Source: an uncultured Bacteroidota bacterium (GTDB taxonomy: Bacteria; Bacteroidota; Bacteroidia; Flavobacteriales; Flavobacteriaceae). Taken from it: a stretch of DNA of 39,045 nucleotides. Each line of letters starts with the position of its first letter. Within the stretch, counting starts at the first letter, position 1. The stretch is from assembly GCA_902609185.1 (NCBI GenBank), contig CACLQX010000004.1, forward strand, positions 1 to 39,045, in the 5' to 3' direction. Positions 2 through 18,838 of this stretch are shown piece by piece. The notes under the pieces were generated by a model. The model was not told the DNA's origin and made no database searches. It saw only the letters and a list, made by a program, of their open reading frames with translations. Both the position numbers and the translations under genes were made by a program.

Positions 2-583
2 CAAATTGAATTATCTGATATTTTATCCAGATTAAAATTAAAAAAAGGTAATTACTTTGTCGTGTCAGCCCATCGGGAAGAGAATATAAATTCTGTTAAT
101 TTTTTCAAATTGATAGAATCACTAAATGCTATAGCTGATAAATATAAATACCCTATTATTTTTTCAACTCACCCTCGCACTAGAAATAAAATTGAAGAAA
201 CAAGGGTGCATTTAAATAAATTGATTAAACTGATAAAACCTTTAGGTTTTCATGATTACAATAATTTACAGAATAATTCTAAAGTAGTTTTGTCAGACAG
301 TGGGACTATTTCTGAAGAATCATCAATTTCAAATTTTCCTGCATTAAATATAAGAGAAGCCCATGAACGACCCGAAGCTATGGAAGAAGCGTCTGTCATG
401 ATGGTAGGATTAAATACTGAACGTATTTTACAGGCTATAGAATTAATTAGCAAACAGCCTAGAGGAAGGGCAAGGCTTTTACGCGAAGTAAATGACTATT
501 CCATGCCAAATGTTTCAGATAAAGTAGTCCGTATTATCTTAAGTTACACAGATTATGTGAACAGGGTAGTTTGGAATAAATAA
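2..583 (+). CDS. fnlC: UDP-N-acetyl-L-fucosamine synthase-like / UDP-GlcNAc 2-epimerase family (FnlC/WbjD type), 5' truncated by window edge
   Basis: Frame is open from base 2 (QIELSDILSRLKLKKGNYFVVSAHREENI...), so the ORF-track start at 62 is an edge artefact. Motifs SAHREENI, SDSGTISEESSISNFPALNIREAHERPEAMEEASVMMVGL resemble FnlC/WbjD more than WecB. Followed directly by a WbuB-like GT. Confidence 0.82.
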   Translation, partial: QIELSDILSRLKLKKGNYFVVSAHREENINSVNFFKLIESLNAIADKYKYPIIFSTHPRTRNKIEETRVHLNKLIKLIKPLGFHDYNNLQNNSKVVLSDSGTISEESSISNFPALNIREAHERPEAMEEASVMMVGLNTERILQAIELISKQPRGRARLLREVNDYSMPNVSDKVVRIILSYTDYVNRVVWNK

Positions 584-584
584 A

Positions 585-1796
585 ATGAAAATACTTGTAG
601 TAACTCAGCATTTTTATCCAGAAAATTTTAAAATTAATGACTTTTGCTCTGAATTGATTAAAAGGGGGAATCACTTAACTATTCTAACTGGCAAACCAAA
701 TTATCCAGGTGGAAAATACTTCATGGGTTATAGTTTATTTTCAAAGCACAAAGAATTTTTCCATGGAGCAGAAATTATTAGGGTACCTGTCATTGCCAGA
801 GGCAATGGTTCTAACTTTAAATTATTTTTAAACTATATTTCTTTTTCTTTTTTTGGATCACTTTTTACTTTTTTTCACAGAAAAAAATATGATTTTTCTT
901 TTGTTTTTGCAGTTTCACCAATTACAGCTGCCATACCTGCAATAATTCATAGGATTTTTCATGGAACAAAAATGTTTTTATGGGTTTTAGATTTATGGCC
1001 AGAAAGTGTTGAAGTGACAGGAAGACTTAAAAGTTCCATTTTGAAGAGGATGCTGTCATTATTGGTCCAATTTATTTATAGGCAATCTGATAAAATTTTT
1101 ATCTCATCCCGATCTATGAAATCATCAATTAAAGAAAAAATTAGATCTAAAAATTTTAAAGAGATTTATTATATGCCAAATTGGGCTGAGGATAATATTT
1201 TTGAAAAAAGTGTAGATTTTAAAAAATATTTATCGCTAATGCCAAGTGGTTTTAAAATAATGTTTGCTGGTAATATTGCTTCTGGCCAGGACATACCATC
1301 ATTACTTAAAACAGCTTCAATATTAAAAAGGTCCAATAATATAAAATTTATTTTTGTTGGAGATGGTACATTAAAAAACTATTTGGTTGATCAAATCAGA
1401 AAATTAAAACTCGATAAAACAGTTTATTATTTAGGAAGTTTTCCTGTAACTGAAATGGCAAGTTTATACTATCATGCCGATATGATGATGCTATCTCTTA
1501 GAGATGAATACATATATTCATGTACAATTCCAGGAAAGCTGCAAGGTTATCTTGCTTCCAAAAAAGCAGTTGCAGCAATGATTAGTGGAGAAACAAATAG
1601 AATAATAAAACAAGCATCATGTGGAATCACAGTTGAAGCTGAAAATTATACTAAATTTGCATCAGAAATATTAAAAATATCAAAAATTAAACCCAAACTA
1701 TTAAAAGAAAAAGAAGAAAATGGGTATAAGTATTACCAAGAAAATTTTAATAAAAAAATTATAATTGAAAATTTTATAGAAAGAGTGTCTTTGTGA
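585..1796 (+). CDS. wbuB: Glycosyltransferase family 4, WbuB-like (probable L-FucNAc transferase)
   Basis: N-term MKILVVTQHFYPENFKINDFCSELIKRGNHLTILTGKPNYPGG typical of WbuB-like GT4; adjacent to FnlC-type epimerase. Confidence 0.8.
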   Translation: MKILVVTQHFYPENFKINDFCSELIKRGNHLTILTGKPNYPGGKYFMGYSLFSKHKEFFHGAEIIRVPVIARGNGSNFKLFLNYISFSFFGSLFTFFHRKKYDFSFVFAVSPITAAIPAIIHRIFHGTKMFLWVLDLWPESVEVTGRLKSSILKRMLSLLVQFIYRQSDKIFISSRSMKSSIKEKIRSKNFKEIYYMPNWAEDNIFEKSVDFKKYLSLMPSGFKIMFAGNIASGQDIPSLLKTASILKRSNNIKFIFVGDGTLKNYLVDQIRKLKLDKTVYYLGSFPVTEMASLYYHADMMMLSLRDEYIYSCTIPGKLQGYLASKKAVAAMISGETNRIIKQASCGITVEAENYTKFASEILKISKIKPKLLKEKEENGYKYYQENFNKKIIIENFIERVSL

Positions 1797-1824: not shown

Positions 1825-2061
1825 ATGAAAAAAATATTAGAATTAATAAACATTGTACTTGAAAATAGAGATAAAGTTAAACTTGAAGAAATATCTGAGT
1901 CATCAGATTTGAGAACTGATTGTGGTCTAGACTCTTTAGACCTTGCTGAGCTAACAGTTCGAATCGAAGCTGAATATGATATTGATATTTTTGAAGAAGG
2001 TGTAATAACTACGATCGGAGAAATCTTAAATAAGTTAGACTTAGAAAAAACAGATGAGTAA
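1825..2061 (+). CDS. Acyl carrier protein
   Basis: 78 aa, acidic, DCGLDSLDLAELTVRIEAEYDIDI phosphopantetheine-attachment motif (Ser37 in DSLD). Confidence 0.9.
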   Translation: MKKILELINIVLENRDKVKLEEISESSDLRTDCGLDSLDLAELTVRIEAEYDIDIFEEGVITTIGEILNKLDLEKTDE

Positions 2062-3292
2062 AACATTTTATTATGACAATATTGAAGGAAAAAATATTAG
2101 TTATAATAAATTATTGAATGATTTATCTAATACAAACTCATATTCAACATATTGTAGAAGCAATTCATATTATTCGATTTTTAAGCATATTATTCTTTCC
2201 TTGATTACAGGGAAGGAAATTATACTGCTTGACAATGACTTTTCGCAAGAAGAAATCCATAAGCTTATTGGATATAATAAAAACATTTTTGATATTAAAT
2301 CAATCGATCCAATTGGTCAAATCAATTTTAATGATATTATTGATAAAATTAAATTAAATGGTGCTACTTGTAAATTAACCTTGTTTACTTCGGGGACGAC
2401 CGGTATGCCAAAAAAAATTTCTCATAATTTTGATTCGTTATCTCGTTTTGTTAAAAAAGAAGAAAGTAGGAAAAATGATATTTGGGGTTTTGCATACAAT
2501 CCTACACATATGGCTGGCTTACAAGTTTTTTTTCAAGCACTTTTAAATCAAAATACAATTGTTAGGCTTTTTGGTGTTGAAAGAGTCACGTCTTTAAATT
2601 TAATTAACGAATTTAAAATAACAAATATTTCTGCTACACCTACATTTTACCGACTATTACTTCCCGCTGATCATATATGTAATAGTGTAAGAAATTTGAC
2701 CTCCGGAGGTGAAAAGTTTGATTTCAGAACCTTAAAAAAAGTGAAACAGATGTTTCCGAAATGCAGAGTGAGAAATGTTTATGCATCAACAGAAGCAGGG
2801 ACTATATTTGCTTCTGAGGGGGAGGAATTTACAATAAAGTCAGACACAAGTCATTTAATAAAAATAATTGAAGATGAACTCTATATTCATGAGTCATTAA
2901 TTGGCGAGTCAGAAAGTTTGGTAACAGTTGACGGATGGTATCCGACTGGTGATATGATTAGTGTTGTTTCTGAAAACCCGTATTTATTCCGTTTTATCTC
3001 TAGAAAAAATGAAAGTATTAATTCAGGTGGTTACAAAATTAATCCAAGTGAGGTAGAGGATATAATTCGTAGTTTTGATGGAGTAATTGATGTTTATGTT
3101 TTTGCAAAAAAAAATAGCATTTTGGGTAACATAATATGTTGTCAAGTTGTTAGCTCAAATAAATTCTTAACAGAAAAAAGACTCAGGTTACTCTTAAAAG
3201 ATAAACTTCAAGAATTTAAAATCCCTAGACTAATAACATTTGTAAAATCTATCAAAACATCTAGAACAGGTAAACTTTTGAGAAAAAATTAA
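2054..3292 (+). CDS. AMP-dependent synthetase/ligase (ANL family), probable acyl-ACP/acyl-CoA ligase
   Basis: LTLFTSGTTGMPKKI (A3), YASTEAG (A5), YPTGDM (A7), SRTGKLLRK (A10). 8-bp overlap with the ACP gene. Confidence 0.88.
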   Translation: MSKTFYYDNIEGKNISYNKLLNDLSNTNSYSTYCRSNSYYSIFKHIILSLITGKEIILLDNDFSQEEIHKLIGYNKNIFDIKSIDPIGQINFNDIIDKIKLNGATCKLTLFTSGTTGMPKKISHNFDSLSRFVKKEESRKNDIWGFAYNPTHMAGLQVFFQALLNQNTIVRLFGVERVTSLNLINEFKITNISATPTFYRLLLPADHICNSVRNLTSGGEKFDFRTLKKVKQMFPKCRVRNVYASTEAGTIFASEGEEFTIKSDTSHLIKIIEDELYIHESLIGESESLVTVDGWYPTGDMISVVSENPYLFRFISRKNESINSGGYKINPSEVEDIIRSFDGVIDVYVFAKKNSILGNIICCQVVSSNKFLTEKRLRLLLKDKLQEFKIPRLITFVKSIKTSRTGKLLRKN

Positions 3293-3300
3293 TAACTAAA

Positions 3301-4029
3301 ATGAAAAATATATTAATATCTGGTGTATCTAGAGGTTTGGGATTAGAAATTACTAAATCTCTTTTAAAAAAAGAAAATATTTGTGTTTATGGTTTTAGCA
3401 GAGCAAAAACAAAAGAGTTTGAATTTTTAAAAGAAAAAAATCCTGAGAAATTGAAATGGATGTCATATGATATGTCTAATATAAGTGATATTCGAAATAA
3501 AATTTTTAAAGAATTTATTGGTTTGAAAACTCCATTGCATGGTTTTGTTAACAATGCAGCCATATCATATGATGATATTATTACAAATCTTAATTACGAA
3601 CCTTTATTAAAAATGTATAAAATCAATGTTTTTGGACCAATGATGATTACTAAACATGTTATACGTCAATTCTTATTACACAACGTGAAGGGCAGTATAG
3701 TCCATGTTTCCTCAATCAGTGCTCATACAGGATATAAAGGTTTAGCAATGTATGCGTCTAGCAAAGGGGCTTTGGAAGCATTTTCAAAAAATTCTGCTCG
3801 TGAATGGGGTGAAAGAGGGATTCGTTCAAATTCATTAGTAGCTGGATTTATGGAGACAGATATGAGTTCAACTCTTTCTGTAGATCAGAAAAATAGGATT
3901 TTTAAACGAACATCAATGAAGGTGCCAACGACGAAAAGATCAGTTTCTGAAACAATCATATTTTTACTTTCTGAATCTGCTGAGTCAATCACGGGCCAAA
4001 ATATTCACGTTGATTCGGGTACTATTTAA
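3301..4029 (+). CDS. SDR-family oxidoreductase (FabG-like)
   Basis: GVSRGLG cofactor motif, NNAA, VHVSSIS, YASSK catalytic motif, C-term SESAESITGQNIHVDSG. Confidence 0.9.
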   Translation: MKNILISGVSRGLGLEITKSLLKKENICVYGFSRAKTKEFEFLKEKNPEKLKWMSYDMSNISDIRNKIFKEFIGLKTPLHGFVNNAAISYDDIITNLNYEPLLKMYKINVFGPMMITKHVIRQFLLHNVKGSIVHVSSISAHTGYKGLAMYASSKGALEAFSKNSAREWGERGIRSNSLVAGFMETDMSSTLSVDQKNRIFKRTSMKVPTTKRSVSETIIFLLSESAESITGQNIHVDSGTI

Positions 4030-5000
4030 TGATAATAAAAATTTGTAAAACATCTGAATGGGATAATAAATTATGGGTTAATTATTGTGATAATTTTAAT
4101 TCTGTATTTAAAAAACAATTAAAAGTTTCTGATTTTAAAAGGAAGTACAAAATAACCATTGACGGACTCTCCTATCACGCACTGCTTTATAATGATAGAT
4201 TTGAAGTTATTGGTAGTTGTACTGTTATTCCTTTTGCTTATAAAAAAAATAAAAAATTAATTAAGATTGGTCTAGTTGTGGATGTATTTATTCTTGAAAG
4301 TTATAGAACTGACCCCTTAATTTTGAGAAGAATGTATACTGAGTTAAAGAAATTTTTAATTTCTAATAATTTTGTTTCAGTCATTGCTGTACCTAATGAA
4401 ATTTCATATGCATATTGGAAAAGTGTTGTTAAATGGAAAGATGTTGGTAATTTATCTTATTGGGTCCTACCAATAAGGTTAGGGAATATCTTAAAAAAAG
4501 TAAAAATATTAAACTTGATATCCTTACTTTTCGTAAAAATTTTGATTTTAATTAATAAGATATTGTTGTTAGTTGTTAATAGAATAGAAAAAAAATCTTT
4601 ATACGAATTAAATTTAGATAAAACATTTATCAAACATAGGTATTCAAAAAAATACAATAAAATTATTTCTGGCGATGTTACTTTTTATTATCGAATTTAC
4701 AACGAAAATGGTGTCCAAACAGCTTACTTGATAGATGCTAGGCAAGGAAATAAACTTTCATTTAAAGCTTTAATAAGGAGTGCTAATTATATCATTCAGA
4801 ATACTAATGCAGATTTGATCTTATATATTGGATCTATGAATTTATTTCAAACATTATTTTTAAAATCTCCAAAAAAATTTGAACCAAAAAGACTACCATT
4901 AACATGCGACATATTAGAAGAAAAAAATTTGAATAAATACTCTGATATGTTTGATATAAAAAATTGGAATTTTGGTTTGCTAAATTATGACGTTAGATAA
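4029..5000 (+). CDS. Putative GNAT-like N-acyltransferase
   Basis: 323 aa; N-terminal half (FEVIGSCTVIPFAYKK...IGLVVDVFILESYRTDPLILRRMYTELKKFL) reads like a GNAT fold; start overlaps SDR stop (TAATG). Confidence 0.5.
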   Translation: MIIKICKTSEWDNKLWVNYCDNFNSVFKKQLKVSDFKRKYKITIDGLSYHALLYNDRFEVIGSCTVIPFAYKKNKKLIKIGLVVDVFILESYRTDPLILRRMYTELKKFLISNNFVSVIAVPNEISYAYWKSVVKWKDVGNLSYWVLPIRLGNILKKVKILNLISLLFVKILILINKILLLVVNRIEKKSLYELNLDKTFIKHRYSKKYNKIISGDVTFYYRIYNENGVQTAYLIDARQGNKLSFKALIRSANYIIQNTNADLILYIGSMNLFQTLFLKSPKKFEPKRLPLTCDILEEKNLNKYSDMFDIKNWNFGLLNYDVR

Positions 5001-5010
5001 AAATTAAATA

Positions 5011-5859
5011 ATGAACATACTTACATTTGACGTAGAGGATTGGTTTCATTTATTAGATCACAAATCCACAAAATCTGAAAAAGTATGGCTTAACTATGAG
5101 AGCAGGATACATTCCAATATGGAGCGTATTTACAAAATATTGGACAATACCAATCAAAAAGCTACTTTTTTTTGTTTAGGTTGGGTTGCAAAAACTTATC
5201 CAGAAATTATTAGAAAAATTATTGATAAGGGTCATGAAATAGGATCACATTCCCACTTACATCAACTAGTCTACGAACAAACACCTGAGATTTTTAAAAA
5301 AGATCTTGAATGTTCTATTAAAACTATTGAGGATATCTGTGGTCAAAAAGTAATTTATTATAGAGCTCCTGGTTTTTCAATAACAAAAAAAAATATATGG
5401 GCATTTGAAATTATGCATGAGCTGGGTATAAAAATAGACTGTTCAATTTTTCCATCAAAAAGATCGCATGGTGGCTTTCCTTCCTTCAAAAATCAAGAAC
5501 CAGTTATTGTGAGCTACAATGGCATAACTCTAAAAGAACTGCCTATTAATTATTATACAATATTAAATAAGCCAATTATTTATTCTGGTGGCGGATATTT
5601 CCGATTATTTCCTTATTATTTAATTAATAAATGGTCTAAAAACTCTAAGTATGTTATGACTTATTTTCACCCACGTGATTTTGATAAAAATCAACCAATA
5701 ATCAGTGACTTATCCTTAGCAAGAAAATTCAAATCTTATGTTGGCTTAAGTGGGGCAGCAACTAAATTAGAAACTTGGCTTAATAATGACCAGTTTTTAG
5801 ATGTATCAACAGCAGATCAAAAAATTAATTGGAATGAAGTTCCAGTTGTGAAGCTATAG
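5011..5859 (+). CDS. Polysaccharide deacetylase family protein (XrtA/exosortase-associated type)
   Basis: NILTFDVEDWFHL, ESRIHSNMERIYKILDNTNQKATFFCLGWVAKTYPEIIRKIIDKGHEIGSHSHLHQLVYEQTP, YRAPGFSI motifs. Confidence 0.88.
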   Translation: MNILTFDVEDWFHLLDHKSTKSEKVWLNYESRIHSNMERIYKILDNTNQKATFFCLGWVAKTYPEIIRKIIDKGHEIGSHSHLHQLVYEQTPEIFKKDLECSIKTIEDICGQKVIYYRAPGFSITKKNIWAFEIMHELGIKIDCSIFPSKRSHGGFPSFKNQEPVIVSYNGITLKELPINYYTILNKPIIYSGGGYFRLFPYYLINKWSKNSKYVMTYFHPRDFDKNQPIISDLSLARKFKSYVGLSGAATKLETWLNNDQFLDVSTADQKINWNEVPVVKL

Positions 5860-5974: not shown

Positions 5975-6994
5975 ATGAAAAAAATATTAGTTACTGGTGG
6001 AGCAGGCTTTATAGGATCTCATCTAGTAAGATTATTAGTCAATAAATATTCTGACTATCAAATTATAAACATGGATATATTAACCTATGCTGGTAATCTA
6101 GAAAATTTAAAAGATATTCAAGCTAAAAAAAATTACACATTCGTTAGATGTGACATTTGTAATTTTGGAGAGGTTCAACAGGTTTTTGAAAAATATCAAA
6201 TTGACAGTGTAATACATCTAGCAGCAGAATCTCACGTAGACCGTTCTATTGAAGATCCTTTTTCCTTTGCAAAAACCAATGTAATGGGAACTTTAAGTTT
6301 ACTCCAAGTAGCAAAAGATTACTGGTCAAAAGATTTTAATGATAAACTATTTTATCACGTATCTACTGATGAGGTATATGGTTCACTAGGAGCAAGTGGA
6401 TTTTTTACCGAAAAGAGTAGCTACGACCCTCATTCACCATATTCTGCATCCAAGGCATCCTCTGATCATTTTGTAAGAGCTTTTGGGGATACATACGGCT
6501 TACCAATCGTTATATCTAATTGCTCGAATAATTACGGTTCGTATCAGTTTCCTGAGAAATTAATTCCATTATTTATCAATAACATAGTGAACAATAAACC
6601 ATTGCCAGTATATGGAAGAGGTCAAAATGTTAGGGATTGGTTATTTGTAAATGACCATGCAAGAGCAATTGATGTAATTTTTCATAAAGCTAAATTGGGA
6701 AATACATATAATATTGGTGGTTTTAACGAGTGGAAAAATATTGATTTAATTAAAGTAATTATAAAAACTGTAGATCGCTTGCTTGGAAGAAAAGAAGGAA
6801 CTTCTCTTAAACTTATTAATTTTGTCAAGGATAGAGCTGGTCATGATTTACGCTATGCAATAGACTCTTCAAAGTTAAAGAATGAATTAGGCTGGAAGCC
6901 ATCTTTGCAATTTGAAGAAGGAATAGAAAAAACAGTTAAATGGTATTTAGATAATGATAAATGGCTAAAAAATATCTCCTCTAAACAACACTAA
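5975..6994 (+). CDS. rfbB: dTDP-glucose 4,6-dehydratase
   Basis: ILVTGGAGFIGSHLVR, HLAAESHVDRSI, HVSTDEVYGSLG, YSASKASSDHFVRAF, NCSNNYGSYQFPEKLIPL. Confidence 0.96.
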   Translation: MKKILVTGGAGFIGSHLVRLLVNKYSDYQIINMDILTYAGNLENLKDIQAKKNYTFVRCDICNFGEVQQVFEKYQIDSVIHLAAESHVDRSIEDPFSFAKTNVMGTLSLLQVAKDYWSKDFNDKLFYHVSTDEVYGSLGASGFFTEKSSYDPHSPYSASKASSDHFVRAFGDTYGLPIVISNCSNNYGSYQFPEKLIPLFINNIVNNKPLPVYGRGQNVRDWLFVNDHARAIDVIFHKAKLGNTYNIGGFNEWKNIDLIKVIIKTVDRLLGRKEGTSLKLINFVKDRAGHDLRYAIDSSKLKNELGWKPSLQFEEGIEKTVKWYLDNDKWLKNISSKQH

Positions 6995-7154: not shown

Positions 7155-8288
7155 TTGAATTATAAAGAAACATTCTACTTTATCGCAAAATGCTTAACCC
7201 TTACTTTAGAAAGTAAAAATAAAGAAGAAATTAAAAAACAATTAATTTCAAATACCATAGATTGGGATGGGGTAGTGAAAATAAGCACTAATCATTATGT
7301 TTTACCCGCATTGTTCTGTAATTTGTATCGAGCCAATTTTCTACACTATTTACCTAAAGATTTAGTTGATTACATGAAATATATTACCAAGTTAAATAAA
7401 GAAAGGAATTTAAAAATCATTACTCAAGCTAAAAACTTAAATAAGCTATTAATTGCTAATAAAATTAGACCCATATTTTTGAAAGGAACTGCAAACTTAT
7501 TAGCAGGAATCTATGAAGATATTGCTGAAAGAATGGTAGGGGATATCGACTTTATTTTTTCAGAGAAAGACTATCCCAAAGCAATTACTTTATTAAAAAA
7601 TAATGAATACCGTGAAGTGGAAAAGTATGACTATTCTTTTTCAACGGAAAATCCATTTTTTCCTGGTGAAAAACATTATCCAAGGCTTGAAAAAGAAGAC
7701 CAAGTTGCAGCTATTGAAATTCACCATAAAATATTAGTTAAAAAAAAATATTTAAATGAATTTAATTATAGTTTAATAGAAAAAGATTGTCAGATTGTAG
7801 ACAAAATAAGAATTTTGAGCTATTCCAATAAATTAAAATTAACTATTATAGCTAACCAAATTAATGATAGTGGTTTTAAATTTAAAAATATACCTCTACG
7901 TAATGCCTACGATGTTTTTATTTTATCTAAAAAAACAAATGCAAAGGCTGCAGTGAATACTCTAGAGAGGCTAAATCACCCTTTAAATTGTTTTCTAGCT
8001 GCTTGTTTTGAGATTTTTAGTCAGGCAGATAGTTTAAAGTATAATGTAAATAAAAAAACAGGCACTTATTTGGGTATTTTTAAGAAACAATTTGCAAATA
8101 TAAAGGCAACAAAAAGTAGATGGAAAATGATCCAAATTTATTTATTTTTAATGACTAGGTTAGATATTATTTATAAATCCATTTTCTACAAAAAGTACCG
8201 GGCCTGGTTAGTTAAAAGGATTAGAAATAAAAACTGGCGTAAGCAGAAGATAGCTAATTTGATTTTTAAAAAATATTTAGCCAAATAA
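7155..8288 (+). CDS. Nucleotidyltransferase family protein (PF14907-like), TTG start
   Basis: PIFLKGTANLLAGIYEDIAERMVGDIDFIFSEKDYPKAITLL and AAIEIHHKI, typical of the uncharacterised nucleotidyltransferase family in Bacteroidetes glycan loci. No in-frame ATG near the 5' end. Confidence 0.7.
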   Translation: MNYKETFYFIAKCLTLTLESKNKEEIKKQLISNTIDWDGVVKISTNHYVLPALFCNLYRANFLHYLPKDLVDYMKYITKLNKERNLKIITQAKNLNKLLIANKIRPIFLKGTANLLAGIYEDIAERMVGDIDFIFSEKDYPKAITLLKNNEYREVEKYDYSFSTENPFFPGEKHYPRLEKEDQVAAIEIHHKILVKKKYLNEFNYSLIEKDCQIVDKIRILSYSNKLKLTIIANQINDSGFKFKNIPLRNAYDVFILSKKTNAKAAVNTLERLNHPLNCFLAACFEIFSQADSLKYNVNKKTGTYLGIFKKQFANIKATKSRWKMIQIYLFLMTRLDIIYKSIFYKKYRAWLVKRIRNKNWRKQKIANLIFKKYLAK

Positions 8289-8836
8289 TGAACTTAATAA
8301 AAACAAAAATTAAAGGTTTAGTGAAATTAAAGCCATTAATTATAAGTGATAAAAGAGGTAGTTTTATAGAATCATATAATAAAAAGAGTTTAGATAGATT
8401 ATTAGGATCTAAAAATTTTATTCAAGATAATGAATCTGAATCCCACAAAGGTGTTTTGAGGGGCTTACATTTTCAAAGACCTCCTCATACCCAATCTAAA
8501 TTAGTTCGTTGTGTAAAAGGTGTTGTGCTAGATATTGCTTTAGACCTTCGAAAGCAATCAAAAACTTATGGGCAATATATTACTATGGTTTTATCAAGTG
8601 AAAATAAAGAACAAATATTTATTCCTAGAGGTTTTGCACATGGTTTTATAGTCATGAGTGAATATGCAATCCTTTCTTATAAAGTAGATAATTATTACAA
8701 TTCTAAATCTGAGGGTGGGATAATTTGGAATGATCCAAGTTTGAATATAGACTGGAAAATAAATAAAAATGAAATTATACTTTCCGAAAAAGATGCAATG
8801 TTACCGACATTAAATAATTTTTTAAGCCCTTTCTAA
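8288..8836 (+). CDS. rfbC: dTDP-4-dehydrorhamnose 3,5-epimerase
   Basis: DKRGSFIESYNKKS, FIQDNESESHKGVLRGLHFQRPPHTQSKLVRCVKGVVLDIALDLRK, FIPRGFAHGFIV. Confidence 0.96.
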   Translation: MNLIKTKIKGLVKLKPLIISDKRGSFIESYNKKSLDRLLGSKNFIQDNESESHKGVLRGLHFQRPPHTQSKLVRCVKGVVLDIALDLRKQSKTYGQYITMVLSSENKEQIFIPRGFAHGFIVMSEYAILSYKVDNYYNSKSEGGIIWNDPSLNIDWKINKNEIILSEKDAMLPTLNNFLSPF

Positions 8837-9696
8837 TGAAAGTACTAGTGACAGGTGGAAATGGTCAATTAGGTTCTGAGTTAAAAAAAACTTCAATAAA
8901 AGACAATAATTTTAAATGGGTATTTACTGATCGTAAGTCATTTGATCTTACTTTACACAAAAACATTAATTTTTATTTGGATAATATCAAGCCTGACATA
9001 ATTATTAATTGTGCTGCATATACATCGGTTAACTATGCTGAAAATAATTTTGAAACTGCTAATGCCATAAACCATATAGCTGTTGATTTAATTGCTAAGT
9101 GGGCCAATAAAAATAATTGTAAATTAATTCATATATCAACTGATTATGTTTATGATGGAAATTCAAAAATTCCCTATTTTGAATCTGATAAAACAAATCC
9201 TTTAAATAGTTATGGAAGATCTAAATTGTTAGGTGATATAGCTTGTCAAAAAAATAACAATTCTTTCATAATTATAAGAACAAGCTGGTTATATTCAAGT
9301 TTTGGAGATAATTTTGTTACAAACATGATTAAATTAATGTACGGTAATGCTGAAATTAAAGTTATTAATGATCAGTTTGGTTCACCTACCTATGCCGGTG
9401 ATTTAGCATTTGTCATACTACATTTAATAAGAAAAAAAAAATGGATTTCTGGTATATATAATTATTCAAATAAAGGTAATATTTCTTGGTATGACTTTGC
9501 AAATGAAATCAAATCTATTTATGGCTTTAGTACAATAATTAATCCAATATCTTCAGAGTCATATAATCAAAACGTAATACGACCAAAATTTTCAATTCTA
9601 GATAATTCAAAAATTATGGATACGTTTGATATTAAACAAGTTGATTACCTGTCCAGTTTGAAGAAATGTATTAAAATTTTAAAAAATGAATCATAA
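8836..9696 (+). CDS. rfbD: dTDP-4-dehydrorhamnose reductase
   Basis: KVLVTGGNGQLGSELK, IINCAAYTSVNYAE, HISTDYVYDGN, YGRSKLLGD; TAATG overlap with rfbC. Confidence 0.95.
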   Translation: MKVLVTGGNGQLGSELKKTSIKDNNFKWVFTDRKSFDLTLHKNINFYLDNIKPDIIINCAAYTSVNYAENNFETANAINHIAVDLIAKWANKNNCKLIHISTDYVYDGNSKIPYFESDKTNPLNSYGRSKLLGDIACQKNNNSFIIIRTSWLYSSFGDNFVTNMIKLMYGNAEIKVINDQFGSPTYAGDLAFVILHLIRKKKWISGIYNYSNKGNISWYDFANEIKSIYGFSTIINPISSESYNQNVIRPKFSILDNSKIMDTFDIKQVDYLSSLKKCIKILKNES

Positions 9697-9715: not shown

Positions 9716-10831
9716 TTAGGTTCCAATGATTTCTTTAGATATTTTAAGTAGTGGTTCTTTAGCTAAAACAAAACCCGAGCTGAATATTAATCCAAAAATT
9801 AGGAAAATAATGACAATCTGACTCCTTTTGGGTTTAGATCTGCGATTTGGAACAGAAACCTCATCAATTACTGAAAAAATAGGCGTATCCTTATTTAACT
9901 TTATTTTATTGTTATTATACTCTGATGCTAGATTTATTAAAATATTTTGTTGCAATTGATATTCAGATTCTAATTTTTGTAACTCCGACATAAAACTTGC
10001 AGTAGATATACTTTTATTTGAATCTTTGAATTCTGCCAATTTTTTCTGCAGGAAATCAAATTCCTTTTGTTTTAATTCGTACTGTTCTTTAGAAAATTCT
10101 AATCTCTCTTTTATTTTATTCGTTCTAAGTTCAATTATTTTTGACTGTAAATTTTTTGTAACCTTTTCTACTATTTGAGTACTTATAAAAGCTTCCTTAT
10201 CTGTTGCAACAACTTTAATGTATCCCTCTTTTTCATTAAGCTCTATTGCAAATTTTTGTTTGAATGAATTTATCAAACTGTAGTCTTCATCACTTAAAAA
10301 ATTATAACTATTAGTAATATCAACATAGTTTAAAACCTTAGTATCATTCTTCATAAATAATCCTATAGTGTACTTTTTAATAAATCGTATTGGATTAAAA
10401 TTAAATGAGCTTGTATTTTTTTGTAAGTATTCTCTAATTGTTAGTTTATCTCCATCTAAACTAATTATTACTTCTTCAATTATGTCATATGAAAATTCCT
10501 CTGATTCAGTTAATTTTGAATATAGTAGTGGAGATAAGTATGAATCAGTTGACTCTTTAGTTGAATTTAAATTAATTCCTGCAAGCGAGGCCAATGACCC
10601 TAGCCCTTTAACTGAGGGCATTTGGTCATCACTAATTTGGGGAACAAATGTGGTTTGAGAAGTATAAACTACAGGACTAAATAGAGCTACAATGCATCCA
10701 ATAGTTGAAAACAAGACAGATATTTTTATTATCAATTTTCTTTCAAACCACATTTTTTTTAGAATTGCAATAATATCAATCGATTCATCCTCAATAATAC
10801 CATTTAAATTAGTCTTATCTTTTTTCATCAA
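9716..10831 (-). CDS. Wzz/chain-length determinant-type polysaccharide export protein
   Basis: N-terminal EDESIDIIAILKKMWFERKLIIKISVLFSTIGCIVALFSPVVYTSQTTFVPQ (Wzz domain), coiled coil, C-terminal TM segment; no kinase domain. Confidence 0.9.
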   Translation of the reverse strand: MMKKDKTNLNGIIEDESIDIIAILKKMWFERKLIIKISVLFSTIGCIVALFSPVVYTSQTTFVPQISDDQMPSVKGLGSLASLAGINLNSTKESTDSYLSPLLYSKLTESEEFSYDIIEEVIISLDGDKLTIREYLQKNTSSFNFNPIRFIKKYTIGLFMKNDTKVLNYVDITNSYNFLSDEDYSLINSFKQKFAIELNEKEGYIKVVATDKEAFISTQIVEKVTKNLQSKIIELRTNKIKERLEFSKEQYELKQKEFDFLQKKLAEFKDSNKSISTASFMSELQKLESEYQLQQNILINLASEYNNNKIKLNKDTPIFSVIDEVSVPNRRSKPKRSQIVIIFLIFGLIFSSGFVLAKEPLLKISKEIIGT

Positions 10832-13453
10832 TTATAATTTTGTTGCAATTAAAACAGTTGTAAGGGTTGTAGTTATAAAAGTTATAGTTCCAGTCAAATT
10901 ATCAACAAATTGTTTTATTGATTCTTTAAAACCTTCACCCTCTGGTCTAAAATCAGTTACTATTACTGAGTTGGGTAAAACTTTAGGATTCTTAAAAAGG
11001 CCTATTTTTTTTGTTTTTCCATTTGGTAAAATCAAGTAAGACTTTCCACCCTCATTAAATAATTTACCACCTGAATTTTTAATATAACTTTTAGCTTTTA
11101 ATCCTTTTTTCCAAATAAAATTAGATTCATTTTTCACAGCACCTGTGGTAGAAACAATTCCCTTATTGGATGCGATATTGACTATGTCACCATCTTCGAA
11201 TATTTGGTCAGAATTTAATTGATTAAAATTAAGTGAAATTAAATCACCATTTCTAATTAAACTAGATGCATCTAAATTTGCATATCGTGTTAATCCACCA
11301 GCATAATTAATTATATCATTAAGAGACGCATTTCTAAATTCAGCCACCACGGTTTGTGGAAAATTAACTTCTCCAGAAATGCTAATTTTTACACTTTCTT
11401 CATAACCTAAAGTTTCTTTGACAACTAAAATATCCCTGTCTTTTAAAATAAATCCATTATCAGGTTTTTCTTTTAATCCAAGTAAATAATCTTTATCAAT
11501 TTTTATGTTGAATTTTCTTACGATTCTTTCATTTGACATATCTAATTCTGGTCTATTCAGAATTAAATCTTCCTGATTAGCACTTATTTGGAAACCTCCG
11601 GAAAGTAACAAAAGATCTTCTACATACATATTTTCCTCCAAATCATATATGTTAGGGTTGTTGACATAGCCAAAAATCCCAACTGTTTTATTAATGTTTT
11701 CAGTTGTGCCTGTGCTAAATAATATGATTCTATCTCTAGGGTACAGCAATGTAGACTTTAATTCATCTACATTATTAAACTCAAATCTTAAGGTACTGAA
11801 ATCTCCTGTATCATTATTAAATCTTTTAATATCAATCCTTGATTTTAATAAATTAGTAAGAAAATCAGGATTATTAATTTGAGTTGCACTGAAAATTAAA
11901 TCATATACAGTTAAATTTTCCTTCCATGATGTCGTTATATTATCTACACCGTAACCACTAATGGACACAAATTTAGATCCTTCAACCCTTTCATTGCTGT
12001 AAACTTGCACTTGATCCATGTCGTTTAATTGTACAACAATGTTTGAGCTTAAAATATCATTTAAATTATATGAATTATTTACAGATATACCATTTACATT
12101 ACTGGTCACATCTACTCTTTCCAAATATACGTCTGGTAAAACACCTTTTGCGGCACCCAATATTAATGACTTTAGGTCTTTGTAAGTTAGAAGTGAATAG
12201 ATTCCTGGCTCAACTACATGGCCTGAAACAGTAACTTGATTTAATTCTATATCTAAAATTGGAAAAAATGTAATTTTATCTCCATCATATAATTTAATTT
12301 TCTCATCTGAATCCTTTGCTACTTGGTAATTAAAGGTTATTAATTCTCTGTCTGCAATCACATCTTCAGATCTATTTTCGGGTGGTGTAATTCTACTGAT
12401 ATTTACTTTTGTTGTTTGAGCAGTGACAGGTAATCCACCAGAATATTTGAGTAATTCTGAAAGTCCTTCATTTTCTTTTAATTCAAAAAAAGCGTTATTA
12501 TAAACCTCACCCTGTAATAAGAAACTATTTTTTCTAATATCAACAAAAACTATATCGTTGTTTGTTAATCTTACATCTTCCTTTAATTGACCTTTAGTTA
12601 TATAATCATAAAGATCGATAGTTTTGTAAAGTTTATTATTTCTGTAAATCTTTATTTCTCGCAATGTTCCACTTGTTTTGACCCCTCCTGCAGCATATAG
12701 GGCAGATAAGGCAGAGCCTGAGGTATTTAAAATATGTGGTCCGGGGGCCTTAACCTGTCCTAAAACCACAACTTTAACTGGTCTAAGCTGAGTCAGGGAT
12801 ACATCCATAAAGGTTTTTTGAGGATCAGAGTTAAGCCCTGATAAAAATCTACCTAAAAATATTTTTAATCTTGATTTTAATGTTTTGAAAGAATTTCCTG
12901 ATGCAAAAAAGAGCCCGTATCCTCTGATATTAATATTTCCATTTCTATCAACTTGGACGTTTTGTTCAAATGAATTATCTCCGTAGGTAATAATTCTTAG
13001 TTCATCTCCTGGAGCAATAAGATATCCTTCATCAATATTTCCAAGCAGATATTCTTTATCTAAAAACGGATTATTATTAAAAATATTATAACCAAAATAT
13101 TTTGGTCCAGCATCTTCAGTTTCTTCATTATTATCACTAGATTCTTGATCATCACTGTTTTCCTCATTTTCTTTGCTATCTTCAGAATCAGAACTTTGAT
13201 CTTTATCAGGACTTGCTGAATTTTCATTAGGGAACAACTCATTAATTAATTGATCGTAGCTAATTCCTCTCTGTGTTGCTAATTGCCTCGCTTGGGTTTC
13301 AGTCATTCCATTAGCTTTCAAAGCATCCAGCGCCTGAGTTCTAGTAGTTATATTTTGAGATTGAACAGCTTGGGTTGCTTGTTTAATAATAGTTTCATTG
13401 GTCTGCGAGAAACCTGTGAAAGATATTAAGATTATGACGAATAAATATCTCAT
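10832..13453 (-). CDS. SLBB-domain polysaccharide export (Wza-like) outer-membrane protein
   Basis: YLIAPGDELRIITYGDNSFEQNVQVDRNGNINIRGYGLF export motif, several SLBB repeats (VVVLGQVKAPGPHIL..., VTVSGHVVEPGIYSL...), signal peptide, C-term TM. Confidence 0.92.
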   Translation of the reverse strand: MRYLFVIILISFTGFSQTNETIIKQATQAVQSQNITTRTQALDALKANGMTETQARQLATQRGISYDQLINELFPNENSASPDKDQSSDSEDSKENEENSDDQESSDNNEETEDAGPKYFGYNIFNNNPFLDKEYLLGNIDEGYLIAPGDELRIITYGDNSFEQNVQVDRNGNINIRGYGLFFASGNSFKTLKSRLKIFLGRFLSGLNSDPQKTFMDVSLTQLRPVKVVVLGQVKAPGPHILNTSGSALSALYAAGGVKTSGTLREIKIYRNNKLYKTIDLYDYITKGQLKEDVRLTNNDIVFVDIRKNSFLLQGEVYNNAFFELKENEGLSELLKYSGGLPVTAQTTKVNISRITPPENRSEDVIADRELITFNYQVAKDSDEKIKLYDGDKITFFPILDIELNQVTVSGHVVEPGIYSLLTYKDLKSLILGAAKGVLPDVYLERVDVTSNVNGISVNNSYNLNDILSSNIVVQLNDMDQVQVYSNERVEGSKFVSISGYGVDNITTSWKENLTVYDLIFSATQINNPDFLTNLLKSRIDIKRFNNDTGDFSTLRFEFNNVDELKSTLLYPRDRIILFSTGTTENINKTVGIFGYVNNPNIYDLEENMYVEDLLLLSGGFQISANQEDLILNRPELDMSNERIVRKFNIKIDKDYLLGLKEKPDNGFILKDRDILVVKETLGYEESVKISISGEVNFPQTVVAEFRNASLNDIINYAGGLTRYANLDASSLIRNGDLISLNFNQLNSDQIFEDGDIVNIASNKGIVSTTGAVKNESNFIWKKGLKAKSYIKNSGGKLFNEGGKSYLILPNGKTKKIGLFKNPKVLPNSVIVTDFRPEGEGFKESIKQFVDNLTGTITFITTTLTTVLIATKL

Positions 13454-17704: not shown

Positions 17705-18838
17705 TTAGATTGAATAAAAAAAAGATCTAACCGTCTCAATTATCCTATCTTGTTGAGAATTTTCCTTTTCTGAATGTATTGGAAGTGAAAAAACAGAATT
17801 ACATAATTTCTCAGTATTATCAAGGGAAAAATTTTCACTGACATAACTTGAAAAAGCTTCTTGCCTGTAAAGTGGAACTGGATAATAAATCATAGCAGGA
17901 ATTTCGTTTTCAGTTAGATATTTTATTAATTTATCTCTGTATATAGCAGATGTCTTCAGTGTGTATTGATGAAAAACATGGGTTGAATTTGAGGATCTAT
18001 AAGGTATATTTAAATGTTCTATATCACCAAAGCCAATGTCATAAGTCTTGGCCATTTTTTCCCTGTTTGAATTGTACTGATCTAAGTATTTTAATTTAAC
18101 ATTTAGTATTGCAGCCTGGATAGAATCAAGTCTAGAATTACAACCTGTGACTTTGTGGTAATACCTTTTATTTTGTCCGTGATTTGCAACCATTTTCATT
18201 TTTTCTGCAAGATTATCATCATTGGTAAACATAGCCCCACCATCCCCATAACAACCTAAATTTTTTGATGGGAAAAAAGATGTCGTTCCAATATGACCAA
18301 TGGTACCTGTTTTTTTAATTTGACCATTTGAAAATTTATAATTGGCACCAATTGCTTGAGCATTATCCTCAATAACAAATAAATCATGCTTTTTAGCTAA
18401 AATTAAAATCTCTTCCATGTTTGCAGATTGACCAAATAAATGTACTGGAACAATAGCTTTAGTTCTTGTAGTGATTAAAGGTTCAATGTGATCACCGCGC
18501 ATATTAAAAGTGTTTTCATCAACATCTGCCATGACTGGTTTTAGTCCCAATAATGCGACAACCTCAGCCGTTGCCACGTATGTAAAAGATGGGCAAATAA
18601 CCTCATCACCAGGTTTTAAATCACACGACATCAAAGCAATTTGTAGTGCATCTGTTCCATTCGCGCATGGGATTACATGTTTACAACCTAAGTATTTGGA
18701 AAGGTTTGATGAAAACTCATGTACTTTTGGGCCATTAATGTATTTGGTAGATGAAATTGTATCTAAAACCTCTTTATCAATTTGGGCCTTTATTTTTAAG
18801 TATTGACTTTTTAAGTCAACCATTTGTATATTACTCAT
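17705..18838 (-). CDS. DegT/DnrJ/EryC1/StrS-family PLP-dependent sugar aminotransferase
   Basis: MVDLKSQYLKIKAQID, HVIPCANGTDALQIAL, EVICPSFTYVATAEVV, FVIEDNAQAIGA, TTSFFPSKNLGCYGDGGA. Confidence 0.95.
   Translation of the reverse strand: MSNIQMVDLKSQYLKIKAQIDKEVLDTISSTKYINGPKVHEFSSNLSKYLGCKHVIPCANGTDALQIALMSCDLKPGDEVICPSFTYVATAEVVALLGLKPVMADVDENTFNMRGDHIEPLITTRTKAIVPVHLFGQSANMEEILILAKKHDLFVIEDNAQAIGANYKFSNGQIKKTGTIGHIGTTSFFPSKNLGCYGDGGAMFTNDDNLAEKMKMVANHGQNKRYYHKVTGCNSRLDSIQAAILNVKLKYLDQYNSNREKMAKTYDIGFGDIEHLNIPYRSSNSTHVFHQYTLKTSAIYRDKLIKYLTENEIPAMIYYPVPLYRQEAFSSYVSENFSLDNTEKLCNSVFSLPIHSEKENSQQDRIIETVRSFFYSI

Follow-up and report, generated by a model that had tools for sequence, protein, structure and literature searches.

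An acyl carrier protein–ligase–reductase cassette with a tandem GNAT and a deacetylase, proposed to exchange N-acyl groups on a surface glycan of an uncultured Flavobacteriaceae bacterium

Gene content of the cassette

The window examined here, by which we mean the whole stretch of 39,045 nt, is one complete contig (CACLQX010000004.1) of a 0.92-Mb metagenome-assembled genome (MAG), 57% complete, from an uncultured member of the Flavobacteriaceae. Close to its start lie five compactly arranged genes for a dedicated acyl carrier protein (ACP), an AMP-forming acyl ligase of the ANL type, a FabG/NodG-like short-chain dehydrogenase/reductase (SDR), a tandem-GNAT N-acyltransferase and a polysaccharide deacetylase (Table 1); the first three are hereafter designated the trio. 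We propose, with a probability of about 0.55, that this cassette exchanges the N-acyl group on a sugar of a surface glycan.

The open reading frames (ORFs) for the ACP and the ligase overlap by 8 bp, the ligase and SDR genes are separated by 8 bp, and the SDR and GNAT genes share one base (TAATG); this four-gene layout, with its overlaps and spacing, had been described in an earlier note made from the sequence alone, and ORF calls reproduced it exactly. A promoter scan gave matches at chance level, and a terminator was not found. As the earlier note also stated, the window holds no phosphopantetheinyl transferase gene; a search of the MAG itself found none either, a result that 57% completeness makes uninformative. 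A second ACP gene of the same MAG is located on another contig.

Pfam comparisons identified PP-binding in the ACP, AMP-binding and AMP-binding_C in the ligase, and adh_short in the SDR. The ACP scores above the cut-off of PF00550 but below that of the AcpP model, and its homologues carry a Ser motif of the DSL, DSF or TSF type. The ligase contains the ANL motifs A3 (TSGTTG), A5, A7 (TGD), A8 (Arg) and A10 (GK), and the SDR has the N-S-Y-K tetrad and the GxxxGxG motif of classical FabG-like enzymes. The nearest solved structure to the SDR is that of MupS, with CylG also among the closest, both from polyketide-like pathways. In Escherichia coli FabG, residues R129 and R172 serve in ACP docking; the R172 column is Arg in the window SDR, though not in all relatives, and the R129 column is not Arg, so that these positions do not discriminate. 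The deacetylase shows the motifs FDVEDW, SHSHLH, RAPG and YFHPRD, lacks an N-terminal hydrophobic signal, and exceeds the cut-offs of both PF01522 and PF11959; with the XrtA-type model TIGR03006 it scores 236.9 bits, under the curated cut-off of 276 bits.

Table 1. Cassette genes and other features of the window.
Feature	Position	Strand	Evidence
Dedicated ACP	1825–2061	+	PF00550 1.6e-8; phosphopantetheine Ser in GLDSLDLAEL
Acyl ligase of compact ANL type (AMP-forming; 412 aa), proposed to load the ACP	2054–3292	+	PF00501 and PF13193
FabG/NodG-like classical SDR, proposed 3-oxoacyl-ACP reductase	3301–4029	+	PF13561 4.6e-40
Tandem-GNAT N-acyltransferase, 323 aa	4029–5000	+	AlphaFold2 model and Foldseek
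Polysaccharide deacetylase, NodB domain and DUF3473	5011–5859	+	PF01522 2.1e-23; PF11959 1.3e-30
UDP-sugar 2-epimerase, non-hydrolysing, fnlC/wecB-like, C-terminal part (context)	2–583	+	PF02350 3.6e-40
GT4 glycosyltransferase, WcaI family (context)	585–1796	+	NF007640 8e-40, under the model's cut-off
rmlB-like dehydratase, first rhamnose gene (context)	5975–6994	+	PF16363 4.9e-97
Uncharacterised nucleotidyltransferase, between rmlB and rmlC	7155–8288		PF14907
rmlC- and rmlD-like genes, rhamnose pathway (context)	8288–8836 and 8836–9696	+	Sequence reading and neighbourhood
Short UDP-sugar dehydrogenase-like ORF, 267 aa	13604–14407	-	NAD-binding and central domains, without the C-terminal UDP-binding domain
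DegT sugar aminotransferase	17705–18838	-	

Conservation of the trio and variation of the fourth gene

A survey anchored on the ligase gathered at least 80 named loci, a sample of the closest relatives. The window and two further loci, obtained by whole-genome search, bring the set analysed to 83, of which L049/L097 and L050/L124 are two pairs of duplicates or near-duplicates. The SDR gene adjoins the ligase gene in all 83 loci and the ACP gene does so in 80, while in two of the remaining three (L069 and L084) the ligase gene is at or near a contig end. Intergenic gaps are mostly of -4 to +4 bases, and the arrangement is far from what chance would produce. Among the matches listed, the trio occurs in Bacteroidota, Bacillota, Calditrichota and Cloacimonadota, and a scan of viral contigs returned zero relatives. 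The active sites of both enzymes are invariant or nearly so: residues S113, H152, E220, E247, D300, G406 and K407 of the ligase, and N109, S137/S138, Y151 and K155 of the SDR, are kept in 83/83 loci. From its gene linkage with the ACP, the ligase is a putative ACP loader; the SDR is a putative 3-oxoacyl-ACP reductase. Genes for glycosyltransferases, sugar dehydratases or NeuB mark most of the loci as glycan loci, and the co-occurrence of these genes in other glycan loci, which had been set beforehand as a test, was found in many of them.

The gene in the fourth position varies and often encodes an acyltransferase, which can be a hexapeptide (LbH) enzyme, a WecD-like GNAT, an AAC(3)-like protein or a tandem GNAT of the window type. 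The 250-aa product found there in L097, L064 and L070 has no Pfam match; when modelled, its best Foldseek match was WecD from E. coli, the TDP-fucosamine acetyltransferase (E 1.4e-12, TM 0.67/0.77). The GRGAGA loop of E. coli WecD is absent from the WecD-like proteins linked to the trio. In L064, the WecD-like gene is two genes away from a WecE-type dTDP-4-amino-4,6-dideoxygalactose transaminase, identified above the curated cut-off, and in L110, from Bacteroides fragilis, the neighbours of the trio are an LbH acyltransferase and an aminotransferase of the LegC family. Such loci provide the clearest evidence that the trio feeds amino-sugar N-acylation. To this extent the core idea of the earlier note, a self-contained carrier-loading system for an amino-sugar N-acyltransferase, gains support from the exchange of WecD-like and LbH proteins in the fourth position beside sugar aminotransferases.

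In L067, L068, L069, L073 and L078 the fourth position is occupied by a protein of 272–305 aa followed by another long ORF, possibly reflecting a different acyl acceptor; the AAC(3)-like (PF02522) identity of these proteins is established for L067, the one tested. In Epilithonimonas and Chryseobacterium (L050, L092, L101–L103, L105, L115, L121, L124, L125 and L132), ACP, ligase, SDR and LbH acyltransferase make up a conserved operon of four genes outside glycan loci, flanked on one side by the gene for a response regulator of the LytTR type and on the other by a sigma factor gene. In Balneolaceae (L049/L097, about 10352–11706), an ACP-ligase-SDR-WecD-fold unit is situated between RNA methyltransferase and amidohydrolase genes, away from glycan genes.

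The trio and its acyltransferase might instead make a small lipid or secondary metabolite, as the units of Epilithonimonas/Chryseobacterium and Balneolaceae and the polyketide-like context of MupS and CylG could suggest. We consider this very improbable, because the majority of loci are glycan loci and the fourth genes include WecD-fold and LbH enzymes beside sugar transaminases.

The tandem GNAT and the paired deacetylase

Searches with the GNAT sequence against Pfam, NCBIfam and PDB gave no match, and there was no Pfam or NCBIfam match supporting homology with NodA; we therefore turned to structure. The AlphaFold2 model (pLDDT 82) was placed by Foldseek with tandem GNATs, including Enterococcus 2hv2, Eis and N-myristoyltransferase (NMT), with E-values down to 6e-11, which confirms a GNAT acyltransferase fold for what had been described as a possible N-acyltransferase. 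In the window protein, the CoA pyrophosphate loop (P-loop; Q/R-x-x-G-x-G/A) is replaced by YRTDPLIL at residues 92–99. Nine loci, the window and eight others, carry this GNAT with the trio, and all nine have lost the P-loop Gly (YRxDP or similar); L075, a weak match, was excluded from this count. In a tree of 25 relatives the nine trio-linked GNATs form one clade (support 96/93) whose sister is a protein from a Bacteroides thetaiotaomicron plasmid (L004), whereas this protein and 15 distant relatives, none with the trio nearby, keep the Gly in 16/16 cases. The clade that lost the loop is thus the clade linked to the trio, and both changes map to the same branch, which supports, without proving it, that ACP is the acyl donor. 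The window GNAT also lacks a match to PF13527 (Acetyltransf_9), which the distant relatives without the trio do match.

The C-terminus (YDVR or YDLL-type) falls at an identical position in all nine trio-linked GNATs, and its carboxylate may be catalytic, as in NMT or Eis. A hydrophobic helix at about residues 164–182 of the window GNAT is strong only in this protein and in those from L057 and L058, and for this reason no membrane-anchor role is claimed for it.

A deacetylase of the DUF3473/NodB type lies directly 3′ of the GNAT gene in eight of the nine loci of the clade, and the ninth (L128) has a de-N-acetylase of the PIG-L family after the SDR. A DUF3473-type deacetylase is close by in only 3/74 of the other loci (Fisher 4e-8, related loci not being independent). 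Rather than flanking the module, as the earlier note had it, the deacetylase is therefore a conserved fifth member, and the presence of two de-N-acetylase families beside one GNAT family argues for a shared chemical role. A DegT aminotransferase occurs within 8.5 kb in none of 8 GNAT loci versus 26 of 54 others (p about 0.016). This absence, together with the adjacency of the deacetylase, indicates that the free amine would arise most simply by deacetylation. The GNAT–deacetylase pair also exists without the trio, in 5/15 distant loci. When the GNAT-linked loci are placed on the ligase tree, at least three changes are required, so that the pairing was either transferred between lineages or formed anew.

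Some related loci show further peculiarities. The gene following the GNAT in L004 has no Pfam match and was not counted as a deacetylase. In L152 and L161–L164, PF13527-type tandem GNATs stand beside a DUF3473 deacetylase without the trio, possibly as a CoA-based N-acyl exchange pair. In L057 (4903–7460), an N-acetyl sugar amidotransferase of the WbuX/WbpG type precedes the five-gene block, and the glycan may carry an acetamidino sugar; the two genes after it read like putative HisH- and HisF-type partners.

Several observations weigh against N-acyl exchange from ACP. Loss of the P-loop is a single evolutionary event, confined to one clade, and atypical P-loops are known from two GNATs that do use CoA, AAC(2′)-Ic and PseH (PMC4964394), so that loop loss is no proof of ACP use; besides, the ligase could make acyl-CoA, and the fourth-position proteins of L066 and L075 are less clearly P-loop-free. 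The locus statistics treat related loci as independent, and DUF3473 deacetylases are also found in loci without this GNAT (L038), where their role must differ. Lastly, the contig starts mid-locus, so an aminotransferase could lie off-contig, and the window has a DegT gene on the opposite strand, 12.7 kb away. In an alternative scheme, the donor for the GNAT would be acetyl-CoA or another acyl-CoA and its function would be separate from that of the trio, whose ACP-bound acyl would be taken by another transferase, for example as an O-acyl ester. Such a scheme would fit the atypical loops of CoA-dependent GNATs and the other members of this family that retain the CoA loop and match PF13527; we regard it as quite unlikely, given that the visible operon has no other acyltransferase gene, that the GNAT and SDR genes are coupled in translation, and that, on the tree, the loop is lost where the linkage to the trio appears.

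The position of the contig start bears on a different alternative. The start falls inside the fnlC/wecB-like gene, with the upstream part of the locus off-contig, and hence the L-FucNAc-type module that the earlier note placed beside the cassette is only partly visible, while the rhamnose genes are indeed present. In L059 and L079, too, a fnlC/wecB-like gene precedes the module, there accompanied by FnlA; FucNAc genes thus flank it in the window and in these two loci, and were not seen in L057, L061 and L071. The WcaI-family glycosyltransferase is, by context, a probable L-FucNAc transferase. These FucNAc-type and rhamnose genes are shared with the locus for the O-polysaccharide of Flavobacterium psychrophilum, which contains L-Rha, L-FucNAc and Qui2NAc4NR (PMC6519341), and the acceptor of the ACP-bound acyl could accordingly be a 4-amino sugar, for instance UDP-Qui2NAc4N, as is predicted for that O-antigen, with the dehydratase and aminotransferase encoded off-contig and the deacetylase acting separately on the polysaccharide. 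The truncated locus, the DegT gene in the window and the presence of DegT in many trio loci are compatible with this; nevertheless, the lack of DegT near the GNAT-type loci and the de-N-acetylases, of either family, in all nine of them make it rather unlikely in our view.

With regard to other genes of the window, the short UDP-sugar dehydrogenase-like ORF sits between a polysaccharide export gene and an S-adenosylhomocysteinase gene, and the DegT gene, near those for SAM synthetase and S-adenosylhomocysteinase, could give the same glycan an amino sugar.

Proposed pathway and related systems

In the N-acyl exchange that we favour, the DUF3473/NodB-type deacetylase would de-N-acetylate a 2-acetamido sugar, which is probably a nucleotide- or lipid-linked intermediate located in the cytoplasm. 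The ANL ligase would then activate a short acid with ATP and load it onto the dedicated holo-ACP, the FabG-like SDR would turn 3-oxoacyl-ACP into 3-hydroxyacyl-ACP, and the tandem GNAT would move the acyl group from ACP, not CoA, onto the freed amine. As a first guess by analogy, this group may be of the 3-hydroxybutyryl type, since 3-oxoacyl-ACP is the substrate of FabG-like reductases and since Pseudomonas syringae employs a reductase of this kind to make a 3-hydroxybutyryl amide (PMC3927599).

The cassette would follow, again by analogy, the logic of NodB/NodA/NodF or LpxC/LpxD. In Nod factor synthesis, a NodB-type deacetylase frees the amine and the N-acyltransferase NodA loads it from ACP (PMC5080398), and this system also has a dedicated ACP (NodF) and a FabG-like SDR (NodG); it differs in its long fatty acyl chains, its ketosynthase and its chitooligosaccharide acceptor.

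The stand-alone ACP donor, which in this gene set the earlier note thought might be poorly described, has in fact been described or predicted for O-antigen and flagellin glycan loci (PMC6519341; PMC3927599). For genes wfpC–G of the F. psychrophilum O-polysaccharide, the ACP WfpD, the ketoacyl reductase WfpF and the N-acyltransferase WfpG are predicted to add a hydroxylated short acyl group to an amino sugar (PMC6519341), also in a locus with L-FucNAc and rhamnose. However, that system employs the ketosynthases WfpC/E, a PglD-like transferase and an amine from an aminotransferase, where the window has a ligase, a tandem GNAT and a deacetylase; neither ketosynthases nor a PglD-like transferase were found in its visible operon. 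The viosamine island of P. syringae (vioA/B/R/S/acp) combines acp, a 3-oxoacyl-ACP reductase and an N-acyltransferase to place a 3-hydroxybutyryl amide on an amino sugar, and deletion of vioR abolishes the modified viosamine (PMC3927599); it has the KASIII VioS in place of the ligase and the aminotransferase VioA, and lacks a deacetylase.

A likeness to the trio in gene content is also seen in flagellar glycosylation islands from Aeromonas (orf1–3) and Enterobacteriaceae (Acp/CaiC/FabG), which bring together an ACP, an AMP-dependent synthetase/CoA ligase and a 3-oxoacyl-ACP reductase (PMC7874193; PMC4875605), although they are described solely as possible "liposugar" genes, with LuxC/LuxE. Plasmid loci from the alphaproteobacteria Qingshengfaniella, Azospirillum and Haematobacter show the same ACP-ligase-SDR order, with an acyltransferase in L005 and L007, and in L006 the trio is near pseudaminic acid synthase and flagellin genes, with a KASIII present; their ligases are only about 30% identical, and their acyltransferases are different. 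ACP-based sugar acylation has, therefore, already been described or predicted, and what sets the window cassette apart as a variant of it is the combination of ligase, tandem GNAT and deacetylase; in the literature searched, no function has been assigned to the widespread trio. A broader picture, which we hold more tentatively and at somewhat below even odds, is that this unnamed trio serves interchangeable sugar acyltransferases and that, here, a tandem GNAT of the CoA type, which had earlier come to be paired with a sugar deacetylase, switched its donor to a dedicated ACP, giving N-acetyl exchange on surface glycans.

Non-acetyl amides on surface sugars set serotype and recognition in many bacteria, but for few of these amides is it known what supplies the acyl. 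Throughout Bacteroidota, gut Bacteroides and Prevotella among them, the trio can serve as an easily read sign of such decorations in genomes, and the pairing of deacetylase and GNAT predicts a re-acylation of ordinary N-acetyl sugars that could not be guessed from sugar-nucleotide genes. Given the loss of the CoA loop, purified proteins would allow a direct test of whether ACP has replaced CoA as the donor.

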